From Candidatus Nitrosothermus koennekei (lineage in GTDB: Archaea; Thermoproteota; Nitrososphaeria; Nitrososphaerales; Nitrosocaldaceae), in contig JACAFH010000001.1 of assembly GCA_013538715.1 (NCBI GenBank), positions 186,001-250,000 on the forward strand: 64,000 bases of DNA, in the 5' to 3' direction. Position numbers and translations under genes: made by a program. Positions 18,560-56,303 of this stretch are shown piece after piece (the stretch's first letter is position 1; each line of letters opens with the position of its first letter). The notes under the pieces were generated by a model, which worked only from the letters and a program-made list of their open reading frames with translations, did no database searches and had not been told where the DNA came from.

Positions 18560-18657
18560 TGCGGGAGGTGGGATTTGAACCCACGAACCCCTAAGGGACA
18601 GGGTTTCTTCAATAATATCTAAGCCCTGCGCCGTTGGCCAGGCTTGGCAACCCCCGC
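18560..18657 (-). tRNA. tRNA-Leu (anticodon UAG) with a 13-nt intron
   Basis: Class II tRNA. Acceptor GCGGGGG pairs with CTCCCGC plus discriminator A. D-arm GCCAAGCCTGGCCAACGGC, anticodon stem CAGGG/CCCTG, long variable arm with CCC/GGG stem, and T-arm GTGGG-TTCAAAT-CCCAC. The loop between the anticodon stems is 20 nt; removing 13 nt (18605-18617) leaves CTTAGAA with anticodon TAG at 18619-18621, placing the intron at the canonical position after base 37. The CCA end is not encoded. Confidence 0.93.
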
Positions 18658-40802: not shown

Positions 40803-41699
40803 TTATGGAATGTTTAGCGTAGTTTCACAATCTGCTTCAGTATCATTACCTTCTTGACCATCTGCATAGTCAGAACCTAAGCCACAATCTATAGCATCAT
40901 CACTATCAAATATATTCTCGGTCTTAATTATCTCATCACCTAAAATTACATCATCGCCACTTGTACTATCTATATCATCCTCTCCATCTGTTGTAGTATC
41001 ATTACCTTTTCCACCATTTACGTTATCACCTATTATATAATCATCTTCAGTGCTAGTATAGTAATAACCAAGCGTAGTATCTCCTCCAATTATATTATCA
41101 TTTCCTCTTATGATTAGATCATGTCCAGATGAACCATTAATATCATCTCCTATTAATACATCATTTCCATTGCCCCCATCAATATTATCATCTCCTCCAA
41201 TAATAACTTCACTCTTTGACGAACCTATCATATAATCCCCATAAATTACATCATCACCATCTCCCCCATCAATACTATCATTACCTCCAAACCACGAAGT
41301 ATTCTTCTTCTTTGCTATCATATAATCCCCATAAATTACATCATCACCATCTCCCCCATCAATACTATCATTACCTCCAATATTGTATTCTCCTTTCTTA
41401 TAATAATCCCCATAAATTACATCATCACCATCTCCCCCATCAATACTATCATCTCCTCTTCCTCCACAAATTATATCATCTCCTCCATTACCATCAACTG
41501 TATCATCACCTTCTAGTGCATGTATGACATCATTGCCAGGAGTTCCTATAATTGAATCATTGCCAGAAGTTCCAACTATAGTTGCTTTATGACCTCCACA
41601 TTTGATTGATGCAGCATCTACATCATCGAACCTTATTATAGTCATTACTAAAATTCCTGCTAATAACAGCGTCAGTATCTTTTTAGTCATTAATAACAT
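40803..41699 (-). CDS. secreted RTX-like calcium-repeat protein (short)
   Basis: 298 residues. Signal peptide, then GTSGNDSIIGTPGNDVI and many nine-residue GGxGxDxxx repeats; the unit SIDGGDGDDVIYGDY occurs three times nearly unchanged. It shares the signal-to-repeat layout and the V-G-T opening with the larger RTX protein at 1-2071. No catalytic domain. It ends with an Asp/Cys-containing tail. Calcium-dependent folding outside the cell is expected from the family. Confidence 0.88.
   Translation of the reverse strand: MLLMTKKILTLLLAGILVMTIIRFDDVDAASIKCGGHKATIVGTSGNDSIIGTPGNDVIHALEGDDTVDGNGGDDIICGGRGDDSIDGGDGDDVIYGDYYKKGEYNIGGNDSIDGGDGDDVIYGDYMIAKKKNTSWFGGNDSIDGGDGDDVIYGDYMIGSSKSEVIIGGDDNIDGGNGNDVLIGDDINGSSGHDLIIRGNDNIIGGDTTLGYYYTSTEDDYIIGDNVNGGKGNDTTTDGEDDIDSTSGDDVILGDEIIKTENIFDSDDAIDCGLGSDYADGQEGNDTEADCETTLNIP
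41225..41290 (-). repeat. 66-bp direct repeat, copy 1
   Basis: Identical to 41315-41380; a shortened third copy (48 bp) lies at 41405-41452. Encodes the RTX unit SIDGGDGDDVIYGDYMI. Confidence 0.9.
41315..41380 (-). repeat. 66-bp direct repeat, copy 2
   Basis: Perfect copy of 41225-41290 with a 90-bp period. Confidence 0.9.
41405..41452 (-). repeat. 48-bp direct repeat, copy 3 (shortened)
   Basis: Matches the core of the two 66-bp copies without mismatches. Confidence 0.85.
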
Positions 41700-52709: not shown

Positions 52710-52976
52710 TCATCTAACCTTACTTTCTAAACATTCTACTATTCGTGTTAAGATATAATTGAGTCTCAAAGATCTTACATGACTACCACAACCAACATTT
52801 AGATTGTATTTTGTGTCAGGTAATTTAAGTTGTTCAAAAAACACTTGAGCCATATTGTAAGAGTAATGCTGTCCAGTATGAAGAATAAAGTAATCTAATT
52901 TCAAACGTTCACACTCACGAATAATTGGAGACATTATAATCTCAGGTCACGTCCCAAGTACAATTGAAATTTTCAT
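52710..52976 (-). pseudogene. wecB: UDP-GlcNAc 2-epimerase (wecB) 5' remnant
   Basis: From ATG 52976 it reads KISIVLGT, then TGA where the family has Arg, then PEII-MSPIIRECERLKLDYFI and LHTGQHYSYNMAQVFFEQL, followed by an unrelated-looking tail. Family members have about 360 residues; here only the first 70 or so remain and the frame is broken at the conserved GTRPE motif. The two bases before the ATG belong to the preceding gene's stop overlap. Confidence 0.88.
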
Positions 52977-53251: not shown

Positions 53252-53738
53252 TATACCAACGACTATATATTAACTTTTCTAATGTGACATATCTGTATAA
53301 GAATTATCCTGAGTTCATCTTATTTTAGTTACAAGTATATTAATACTCTCTATTTTAGTAGGAGAAATGATATTAGTTAAAATACAACATAGGCTATAGA
53401 TATCAAGGTTACTATATTGATCTAGTTATCATACAGGAATGGTGATGGATTTCTAGCAAGCAGTTAGTGTTACAATGCACTTATATATTGTCAGAATCAT
53501 ATGAATAGCATAAGTATTTGATAATACTCAAGCAAGCAGGCATTAGCATTACATAAGCAATTCACTTATAGATAAAGGTTTATGATATAGACTAGCATAA
53601 GTTTTGGTTTTATATATGAAGAACAAAACATTTAAGAAATAGTATTAAAAATTGTTTCGACAACCTCAATAGCAGGTTAAATCAATTATATACAAAAGTT
53701 GGCATTATTGAGGACTAGAATTATAGGTGAAATCTTGT
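53252..53738. other. intergenic, with an imperfect repeated segment
   Basis: No gene. Two similar stretches of about 75-85 bp, near 53450-53525 and 53530-53615, share AGCAAGCA, a TTACA-containing core, CACTTATA and TAGCATAAGT in the same order, suggesting an old tandem duplication. Confidence 0.45.
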
Positions 53739-54248
53739 TTATTGGTTAATCGAACTATACACTTTATTATATAACTCTAACAATATATCATTATATACTA
53801 CTAACCTATCATACTCTTCCTCTTCTAATATAAGTAATTCATTTGATAATCTTCTACAAAAACCTCTCTTGCAGAGGATAAGTACTCTATTCCATATATA
53901 TCTCTCATTTCTAGTATTTATGAAGTTGATAATATCATTCTTTGCTACTGGTAAACCTTTTCCAGAGATCATAACTCCTTTATGATAATAATAGTATAGC
54001 ATAGCAAGTGATAATATATGTAGTAGAGAAAGGTTTAGTTTATATGCTAGATATAAAGCCTGTCCATATAACGTTAATGTAAACCTCTCTTCTATCTTAG
54101 ATATAATACCACGCTTCATTAGTCTCTTAATCTCCATATCCAAATTGGTAGGCTTAGTAAGCATATCTTTTATCTCGTTTCTTACCATTGGTTTAGAGAA
54201 GAGTATACAAATTATATTACTAGCAACACTACCCTGCTTTATAAACAT
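53739..54248 (-). CDS. winged-helix-like protein of the TFB/ParB operon
   Basis: 169 residues. Residues about 10-70 follow a winged-helix pattern (MVRNEIKDMLTKPTNLDMEI, RLMKRGIISK, ERFTLTLYGQAL), the last part resembling the wing and a following helix. A second half (about 95-160) has another helix-turn-helix-like run, KNDIINFINTRNERYIW. Start overlaps the ParB-like gene's stop by one base (TAATG). Function unknown; DNA binding is inferred. Confidence 0.6.
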   Translation of the reverse strand: MFIKQGSVASNIICILFSKPMVRNEIKDMLTKPTNLDMEIKRLMKRGIISKIEERFTLTLYGQALYLAYKLNLSLLHILSLAMLYYYYHKGVMISGKGLPVAKNDIINFINTRNERYIWNRVLILCKRGFCRRLSNELLILEEEEYDRLVVYNDILLELYNKVYSSINQ

Positions 54249-55225
54249 TATTCATTTTCACATGTCAATATAAGAAACTTTCTGCTTTTACTCTTGCTTA
54301 TTAACTTAAACGCTTCTTCTTTATTAGAAGCAATAAAGAGATGCAATAAACCTTCATTCTCAAACTCCTCTACTATATCAGGATGAAGAGCATATGTATT
54401 TTTGGCTACGTCATCTTTTATAATTAAAAGATTATGGTTAGATTCTAATAATGATACAGTTAACTTCTTCTTATTTATAGCATATGTAGTATCACATTTT
54501 ATACATTTAAGTATTGTTAGCTCTTTTGATTCATTGATTAACTTCTTCTCCAATTTATCTGCAGTCTTTAGACTTTGTTCTTTGTTAGTATTACTCTTAT
54601 AATACGATACAAACGCTAATATACTATCTTCTTCAGGAAATGAGAATCTATTCTCTGGTCTATCTATGTTTATAAATATGTAATCTACTACCTCCTTTTG
54701 ATGCTCGATTGGTATTTTTGAGAGTGTCTTGATTATATAATGTGGTATATACACATTGTCAAATTTCTTACAAAGTAAATCTATATAATACTTGAGTGAA
54801 TTGTATGCCTCTTCTCCTAATTTTGAGATTGAAAGTATAGTTCTTACCTCTTCCACATCAAGCCAATACTTCTTTGCTATCTTATAAAGATCCTTCTCAT
54901 CCTCATCTTTTAGAGCTTCGTAAAGCATTAAAGGATTAAACATACTGTGCTTGTTATATCTTATATGATTTACAACTACCTCCTCTTTATCATTTAACTC
55001 ATGTATATTTGCTTGTATGTAAGATAAACCTGCTCTCTTGAATGCTTCTACTCTTGCATGACCATCTATTATATAATACTCTCCATTTAAAAATCCTACT
55101 TCTATAGGCAGTATAGATTCTGGAGCCTCTTTTGCAGTATTGGCTATCTTAGCAATAAGCTTCTCGCTACTTACAGTTGTCTTTAAAAATGATAACTTTA
55201 ATAGATCTATTCTGATCTTCTCCAT
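54248..55225 (-). CDS. ParB-like N-terminal domain protein
   Basis: 325 residues. Residues about 30-100 form a ParB/Srx-type domain with YYIIDGHARVEAFKRAG (the D-G-H-x-R loop that binds nucleotide in ParB-like proteins). A helical middle (about 105-225) includes a helix-turn-helix-like WLDVEEVRTILSISKLG. A CxxC pair near residue 240 (KCIKCDT) suggests half of a zinc site. No ParA partner is nearby. Overlaps the TFB-like gene by 19 bp. Confidence 0.7.
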   Translation of the reverse strand: MEKIRIDLLKLSFLKTTVSSEKLIAKIANTAKEAPESILPIEVGFLNGEYYIIDGHARVEAFKRAGLSYIQANIHELNDKEEVVVNHIRYNKHSMFNPLMLYEALKDEDEKDLYKIAKKYWLDVEEVRTILSISKLGEEAYNSLKYYIDLLCKKFDNVYIPHYIIKTLSKIPIEHQKEVVDYIFINIDRPENRFSFPEEDSILAFVSYYKSNTNKEQSLKTADKLEKKLINESKELTILKCIKCDTTYAINKKKLTVSLLESNHNLLIIKDDVAKNTYALHPDIVEEFENEGLLHLFIASNKEEAFKLISKSKSRKFLILTCENE

Positions 55226-55896
55226 TCTTTATCAACTCTTTTAATATTTATTAAAAGTTTCAAACTCCTTTGCATCCTTGTACTTCTTCTCCCTTTTAAC
55301 ATATTATACATTTTTATTGCTTTCATCATCAAATATTTATCACATGTTTCTACATAATTATTCAATTCATTGATGAGTATTTTTGTAAAATATTCATCAT
55401 TATATGATATATTACATATATCAGATAATTTATTCATTATTTTTAATAGACTAGGTAATTTATTTACAACATAAACAGATTTTATTACTTCTTTAATTTC
55501 ATACTCTGATTTTGGAATTGCATATCTTATACACGTATTACTTATTGATAGAAGTGCAGCTTCGGCTTTTTTTATTCGAGAAGATGATTTTAATAAGCGA
55601 GAATAGTAAGACCATGCATCTAACGCTGCATAAAGCGGTAGATTTAACTTCTCACATACTATTGAAAAGTCAGAGCTTGTATATTCATTAATATGTAGCC
55701 TTTTAAACTGTTCCTTTCCACCTAATTCTACTACATGGAAAAGACGTGGATTATTCGTCATCTTTAACTCTTCATTATAAGTATATCCTAAGACATAACC
55801 ACAGCTATCACATACCATCTCTCCATCAATATTTCTTATGAACGAATGCACATGAGTCTCTCTCTTCTTATAGATTGCATCTGTATGAAATTCCAT
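55207..55896 (-). CDS. divergent TFB/TFIIB-like protein
   Basis: 229 residues, against about 300 in ordinary archaeal TFB. The N-terminal zinc ribbon is altered: HVHSF with two His, then MVCDSCGYVLG with two Cys. Two cyclin-like helical repeats follow: about 65-135 (IVCEKLNLPLYAALDAWSYY, then AALLSISNTCIRYAIP) and 140-225. The B-finger region is shortened. It may be a specialised initiation factor for a few promoters or a repurposed DNA-binding protein. First gene of a three-gene operon. Confidence 0.7.
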   Translation of the reverse strand: MEFHTDAIYKKRETHVHSFIRNIDGEMVCDSCGYVLGYTYNEELKMTNNPRLFHVVELGGKEQFKRLHINEYTSSDFSIVCEKLNLPLYAALDAWSYYSRLLKSSSRIKKAEAALLSISNTCIRYAIPKSEYEIKEVIKSVYVVNKLPSLLKIMNKLSDICNISYNDEYFTKILINELNNYVETCDKYLMMKAIKMYNMLKGRRSTRMQRSLKLLINIKRVDKEWRRSE

Positions 55897-56147
55897 CGAT
55901 ATACAACTTGTGAACCTATTATTTATAATTATTGGTACATTGATAGTAATATTAATAGAAATATTAAATTAATGTATGTATATTATTAATATTATTATAA
56001 TGTTATATTATTTATAATCTTCTTCAAGATACTTCTACTAAAGCAATCTATTATAATTCATCTAGAATACTGAGATAGGAATAAGATTTCTTATATGTAT
56101 ATATAATTTAACAGCTTTTATATATTACTATCAATCCGATTTAGAAT

Positions 56148-56303
56148 ATGAAGATAGTAATAATGGAGAATGGTCCGATAATAATAGAGGGTAAGAAAAG
56201 AGTAGCATTATGTAGATGTGGTCATTCAAATAATAAACCATATTGTGATGGCAGTCATAGAAACGCTGATTTTAAAGCAGCAGGTGTAGAGTTAGATCTC
56301 TAA
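56148..56303 (+). CDS. CDGSH-type iron-sulfur protein
   Basis: 51 residues, ATG 56148 to TAA 56301-56303. One CDGSH motif: C-R-C-G-H-S-x4-P-Y-C-D-G-S-H, with three Cys and one His that hold a 2Fe-2S cluster in the mitoNEET family. Single-motif proteins of this size are usual in archaea. The 3' end overlaps the convergent zinc-ribbon gene by 12 bp. Confidence 0.9.
   Translation: MKIVIMENGPIIIEGKKRVALCRCGHSNNKPYCDGSHRNADFKAAGVELDL

Follow-up and report, generated by a model that had tools for sequence, protein, structure and literature searches.

A conserved operon of a divergent TFB, a ParB-fold protein and a winged-helix-type protein as a candidate transcription-control module for thaumarchaeal conjugation and pilus genes

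Three overlapping genes in the window, by which we mean the whole analysed stretch of 64,000 nucleotides from Candidatus Nitrosothermus koennekei, encode a divergent TFB-like protein, a ParB-like protein and a winged-helix-type protein, and together they are a conserved, co-inherited unit. The reading that we prefer, at a probability of roughly 0.55, is that this operon serves as a module dedicated to the transcriptional control of conjugation and pilus genes, of the kind associated with thaumarchaeal integrative-conjugative elements (ICEs) and type IV pilus clusters, which here stands alone. We know of no account of how conjugation and pili are controlled in ammonia-oxidising archaea, and a conserved operon in which a special TFB is linked with a ParB-fold protein and a partner that binds DNA would offer a direct and testable entry to this question.

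The Operon and Its Promoter Region

The window is taken from an assembly of 1.46 Mb in 34 contigs (G000). All three minus-strand frames are intact, and the overlaps of 19 bp (TFB-like/ParB-like) and 1 bp (ParB-like/winged-helix), from which a sequence-only reading had concluded that the genes are made together, agree exactly with the ORF coordinates (Table 1). The operon transcript, if it starts from the TATA-like element in front of the first gene, is possibly leaderless. A 14-bp element of this region is shared with the promoter of a divergent gene for a CDGSH iron-sulfur protein (51 aa, 56148–56303). Its exact copies occur at the operon locus alone, but as a regulon marker it was considered and dropped, since in such AT-rich DNA it lacks significance: the 14-bp inverted repeat of the operon promoter is no better than chance against shuffled sequence (p = 0.58), and the near-copies inspected elsewhere fall mostly within genes. 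At other places in the window, proteins with GxxGNDxI repeats that resemble the calcium-binding repeats of RTX proteins are encoded at 1–2071 and 40803–41699, and a tRNA gene of 98 nt that probably contains an intron (18560–18657) was found by Rfam and missed by ARAGORN.

Table 1. Positions of the operon, its protein motifs and its upstream elements in the window.
Feature	Position	Strand	Remarks
TFB-like gene, 229 aa	55207..55896	-	One complete cyclin repeat after a zinc ribbon and a short linker; shortened C-terminus
TFB-like: zinc ribbon H-x-H...C-x-x-C, residues 15-36	55789..55854	-	
TFB-like: first cyclin repeat, residues 73-161	55414..55680	-	Five helices, pLDDT mostly ~90 or above
TFB-like: C-terminus, residues 167-228	55213..55398	-	Three helices where a full second cyclin repeat would lie; modelled with lower confidence
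ParB-like gene, 325 aa	54248..55225	-	ParB/Srx-fold domain, helical DNA-binding region, Cys-containing C-terminal domain
ParB-like: GxxR phosphate (P) motif, residues 55-58	55052..55063	-	DGHAR here; named after PMC12704722
ParB-like: helix-turn-helix-like stretch, residues 113-135	54821..54889	-	
ParB-like: CxxC of putative C-terminal zinc ribbon, residues 241-244	54494..54505	-	
Third gene, winged-helix-type, 169 aa	53739..54248	-	
TATA-like element TTATAAAT	55921..55928	-	25-32 nt 5' of the TFB-like start codon; inferred operon promoter
14-bp element ATATTACTATCAAT	55939..55952	-	5' of the operon; not significant against shuffles
14-bp element, second copy	56122..56135	+	5' of the divergent CDGSH gene; sole other exact copy in the assembly

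The Three Proteins

Each of the three proteins alone is nearly invisible to family libraries, and single-sequence searches of genome contigs and viral contigs returned no relatives, so that profiles of relatives were needed; these were built in part from the loci tallied below, and the E-values are therefore not independent of the tally, while the gene order is. For the TFB-like protein the single sequence gives a zinc-ribbon match below threshold (Pfam 18.3 bits, cut-off 29), but its proposed identity is borne out by a family profile of 30 sequences, which finds TFIIB (E = 6e-8) and Brf1 (E = 3e-6), and by the structure model, whose best PDB fold matches are TFIIB (E = 0.006, probability 0.99). 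The N-terminal zinc ribbon of canonical TFBs is present by profile and alignment. It had been described as altered, and indeed H-x-H replaces CPxC in the ligand set H-x-H/C-x-x-C of the window protein, although relatives have CPxC or, commonly, C-x-H forms.

In the tree, one branch with a support of 99/100 splits 34 module TFBs from six canonical TFBs, with which the window protein does not group, and the module TFBs are a separate clade, distinct from ordinary TFB paralogues. The TFB of the pilus-linked modules is clearly homologous to the other module TFBs (hhalign 99%, E = 5e-18). Several TFBs per archaeon are common and the source genome has three canonical ones, which would suit an ordinary extra paralogue with chance neighbours; the separate clade, the failure of PF00382 to match the window protein and neighbours that are conserved in 41 loci make this very improbable, and the possibility on which the sequence-only reading was to fall is in effect ruled out.

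The model of the TFB-like protein shows the ribbon, then a confident five-helix cyclin repeat, then three less certain helices, and the family profiles align with TFIIB chiefly via the ribbon and the first cyclin repeat; profiles and model thus give one complete repeat instead of the two of a canonical TFB. In TFB, recruitment of RNA polymerase falls to the zinc ribbon and recognition of the BRE to the second cyclin repeat (PMC7289017). Because the full second repeat, the BRE reader, is absent, we infer that such a TFB must be placed on DNA by some other factor.

The ParB-type identity of the second protein is upheld by a family profile that finds Noc and ParB, with Noc as best match (E = 3e-10), and by fold matches of its model to ParB/Noc/KorB (E ~ 1e-9). 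The highest target TM-score among the listed ParB-family matches of the model (0.65) is that of the KorB-KorA complex 8qa9, and a pNOB8-like ParB-N is found with E = 2e-4, weaker than Noc and KorB. The model is confident at residues 1–185 and of low confidence in the C-terminal part. Both the ParB-CTPase fold and the GxxR P motif are present in the window protein, as seen in profile, model and alignment, and so is the HTH-containing DNA-binding domain, which the Noc/ParB profile alignment spans and which the model gives as confident helices. A box III (ENLQR-type) motif is absent, with a motif of the N-x(5)-N-P type instead; box III is often missing in orphan ParBs (PMC12704722). With the window counted, 30/37 modules retain GxxR and 7/37 have lost it, which indicates that nucleotide binding is dispensable in some. 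The Noc match could speak for a Noc-like set of chromosome-organising or division-site proteins, but the resemblance is common to KorB and ParB, and the patchy distribution and the mobile or pilus contexts of the module leave this reading with very little credibility.

The third protein had been called DNA-binding-like, a description that the family profile weakly favours, since it leads to winged-helix repressors (IdeR/DtxR, E = 0.007), and that the protein alone, matching nothing in the family libraries, does not support. The idea of one family for the third gene throughout found no support in the pilus-linked clade (hhalign probability 18%), where this gene is PadR-like. The third slot is constant, and its occupant differs between clades.

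Conservation of the Module

Loci were collected by an initial search of 300 genomes of the phylum and a profile search of 400 genomes of the order, and the tally set comprises 52 loci found via the ParB-like protein. The TFB-like gene lies directly upstream of the ParB-like gene in 50 of these and a winged-helix-type gene directly downstream in 43, while all three genes occur in the same order, with their overlaps kept, in 41. Since 41/52 homologous loci keep this order, the grouping is not due to chance. The same sub-clades appear in the TFB tree and the ParB tree, and the pairwise identities of distant pairs correlate (r = 0.86 for TFB-ParB, and 0.75 and 0.77 for the two comparisons that involve the third protein). 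The three genes therefore do co-occur elsewhere as a real set, as the sequence-only reading had supposed, and the absence of co-occurrence that would have spoken against it is excluded.

The window proteins share 25–33% identity with their nearest copies. Hits beyond the order of the window (L048 and L033 in G130, L024 in G080 and L022 in G172) all belong to family f4. Many of the weaker matches of the order scan look like a different ParB-like family of ~290 aa, and the two loci of this type that were inspected (L049, L136) have no TFB neighbour. A tblastn search of plasmids with the ParB of L039 gave no match.

Genomic Context in Relatives

Components of conjugation (T4SS) or type IV pilus (T4P) systems are found in 35 of the 52 module flanks. 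Control stretches from these and related genomes yielded none, save the VirB4 contig itself. The other genomes of the family (6/6) have consecutive genes for RHH, TFB, ParB, winged-helix protein and VirB4, with VirB4 directly downstream of the module and VirB6 further on, an arrangement that resembles the one described for Nitrosocaldus elements. Judged by these relatives, the source genome would be that of a thaumarchaeon of the ammonia-oxidising type. A pilus cluster (pilins, FlaI, TadC) adjoins the module in seven loci, and in many loci a prepilin peptidase gene follows immediately after the third gene. An RHH gene is found in 19/52 flanks. It is often transcribed away from the TFB gene, and the promoter region between the two has repeats that beat shuffles in some loci. 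In six genomes of the family the module is also accompanied by a conserved protein of ~600 aa with a P-loop-like motif and no Pfam match (L035:5302–7128, with homologues in L036, L037 and L102–L104).

ParM-like actin genes lie in 13/52 flanks, and in L039 directly after the module. They fit partition as well, and because of these neighbours in some relatives the main rival of the control module is a partition module, in which the ParB-like protein would bind a centromere-like site of a present or former mobile element, the winged-helix protein would be a spreading or adaptor factor like pNOB8 AspA, and the TFB would merely sustain expression of the operon in new hosts. A ParB fold with a DNA-binding region, the pNOB8-like ParB-N among the fold matches and the PadR-like third protein of the pilus clade are in line with this, but inspection of modules brought no ParA to light, the source genome yielded no ParM homologue, and Noc/KorB are better matches than the pNOB8 ParB. 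Moreover, partition does not explain a TFB slot that is nearly as constant as ParB, and it sits poorly with a window copy on a 294-kb contig among housekeeping neighbours. We consider partition possible, but on balance unlikely.

The Stand-Alone Copy in the Window

No conjugation, RHH, pilus or ParM-like genes are found beside the window copy, which has neither the ParA or ParM partner of a ParABS system nor, anywhere in the window, the VirB4/VirD4 element of an ICE. The lack of ParA that had been remarked on is true locally, and the only two ParA-type (AAA_31) matches in the source genome lie on other contigs. On one side the operon is flanked by the CDGSH gene, a p27-type zinc-ribbon gene and SUI1 (the last by inspection), and on the other, to its left, by sparse DNA (53252–53738), a truncated piece of a UDP-GlcNAc epimerase gene (WecB, 52710–52934) and genes for membrane proteins. 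Synteny with the other copies of the family was looked for and rejected: in four relatives the SUI1-p27 region is without the module, and their copies lie by VirB4.

The truncated epimerase piece next to sparse DNA, the missing conjugation genes and the non-syntenic site would all agree with a relic, that is, a remnant of an ICE with no present function. Three frames and key motifs that are intact despite long divergence count against this reading, and we hold it to be improbable.

Conjugation-type genes of the source genome lie outside the window: VirB4 is found only on a separate contig of 4.1 kb (C25, L051:1–4128), which carries a VirB4-like ATPase and membrane proteins of VirB2/VirB3 size. 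FlaI-type pilus ATPases are encoded elsewhere in this genome, one of them inside a pilus-type cluster; the pilus-type cluster on contig C18 (L154:516–11128; adhesin-like protein, pilins, FlaI and prepilin peptidase) has no adjacent module. A second, very divergent module, with an RHH gene, a TFB-like gene, a protein in the ParB position that lacks the GxxR motif and a winged-helix-like gene, lies on a contig of 3.5 kb (C26, L118:178–2718). Contig C33 has a CRISPR-like array near a canonical TFB gene (L053:4437–6114).

Proposed Function

Control of conjugation and pilus genes is favoured because a partial TFB is combined with constant DNA-binding partners, among them a KorB fold, and because KorB-KorA and TFB3 provide precedents. 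In such a control module the winged-helix and ParB-fold proteins would bind operator DNA near the target promoters, the latter probably as a nucleotide-regulated DNA clamp as in KorB, and together they would gate the access of the special TFB to these promoters. The special TFB, in which the first cyclin repeat and the ribbon that recruits polymerase are kept but a full BRE-reading second repeat is missing, would then work where its partners in the operon have marked a promoter; alternatively, it may be a co-activator beside the normal TFB, as TFB3 is in Sulfolobus. The usual targets would be the conjugation or pilus genes and the promoter of the module itself. Separated from such genes, the window copy may control its own promoter together with genes in trans, such as the pilus or VirB4 genes found elsewhere in the source genome, or it may be in early decay. 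The fact that no binding site or target gene was found for the window copy counts against the control module, as do its lack of conjugation, RHH or pilus neighbours, the loss of GxxR in 7/37 modules and a third gene that varies from clade to clade.

A more speculative version, which we think quite unlikely to be right in this form, is that a nucleotide-switched ParB-fold clamp and its winged-helix partner decide whether a dedicated one-cyclin TFB reaches distant promoters, and that the window copy is a domesticated, stand-alone form whose targets in trans are chromosomal genes for the cell surface or for DNA transfer. If so, an archaeal general initiation factor would be under the control of a sliding DNA clamp. 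The earlier suggestion of a new transcription-initiation or chromosome-organising device is partly retained: the protein families are those of transcription initiation and DNA binding, whereas chromosome organisation is disfavoured because the relatives adjoin conjugation or pilus genes and partition motor proteins are missing near the window copy.

Comparison With Known Systems

The operon had been put forward as a candidate for an undescribed system, a view that is not supported, since the coupling of TFB and ParB is already known. Divergent TFIIBs were noted in Nitrosocaldus ICEs in 2018 (PMC5797428), and, according to the available part of a later paper, most thaumarchaeal ICEs have a TFIIB homologue immediately upstream of a ParB-like gene, probably in one operon (Krupovic et al., 2019, PMC6563490). 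The TFB-like gene of the window likewise lies directly upstream of the ParB-like gene in a likely operon; however, the published pair adjoins genes for VirB4, VirB6, TadC, FlaI and prepilin peptidase, whereas no recognisable element encloses the window copy. A third winged-helix slot goes unmentioned in the same part of that paper, in which the coupling is described as one that thaumarchaeal ICEs apparently have to themselves, while modules are also found beyond the order, in family f4. What is new is therefore the constant third slot, the pilus-linked clade, the occurrence outside the order and a window copy alone, without conjugation, RHH or ParA/ParM genes; in the literature consulted, supplementary files aside, no description of the three-gene unit, the pilus clade, the extra-order occurrence or the stand-alone copy was found.

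One of the closest known systems is the AspA-ParB-ParA segregation operon of pNOB8, an archaeal mobile element, which also combines winged-helix and ParB-fold proteins and is represented among our fold matches by structure 5k5d. Unlike it, the window operon is without ParA and has a TFB in the first slot, and the pNOB8-like ParB-N is the weaker structural match.

In Sulfolobales, the Ced and Ups operons for DNA transfer and pili are co-regulated by the paralogue TFB3 (PMC9905601), which cannot substitute for the normal TFB (PMC7289017). By these published descriptions, the module TFB resembles TFB3 as a divergent TFB linked to DNA-transfer or pilus genes, but it is tied to ParB and winged-helix partners. 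In plasmid RK2, KorB with KorA controls promoters from a distance (PMC11790492), and the likeness is that of a ParB-family protein, putatively a clamp here too, with a small DNA-binding partner, the ParB-like fold of the window matching the KorB-KorA complex. KorB-KorA controls plasmid and conjugation genes, a role to which the module points by its location beside conjugation genes in relatives and by fold similarity; it differs in being archaeal, in having a TFB added to the operon and in its GxxR context, DGHAR. Finally, a survey of ParB folds from 2025 reports links to mobile elements and bacterial fusions of ParB fold and Sigma70 (PMC12704722), and nowhere in its main text refers to TFIIB. 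These fusions also tie a ParB fold to a transcription-initiation factor, although they are bacterial gene fusions with a sigma factor and the module is an operon with a TFB. The module would thus be an archaeal counterpart of both KorB-KorA and the bacterial ParB-sigma fusions, and it suggests that mobile elements may bring their own promoter-selecting factor.
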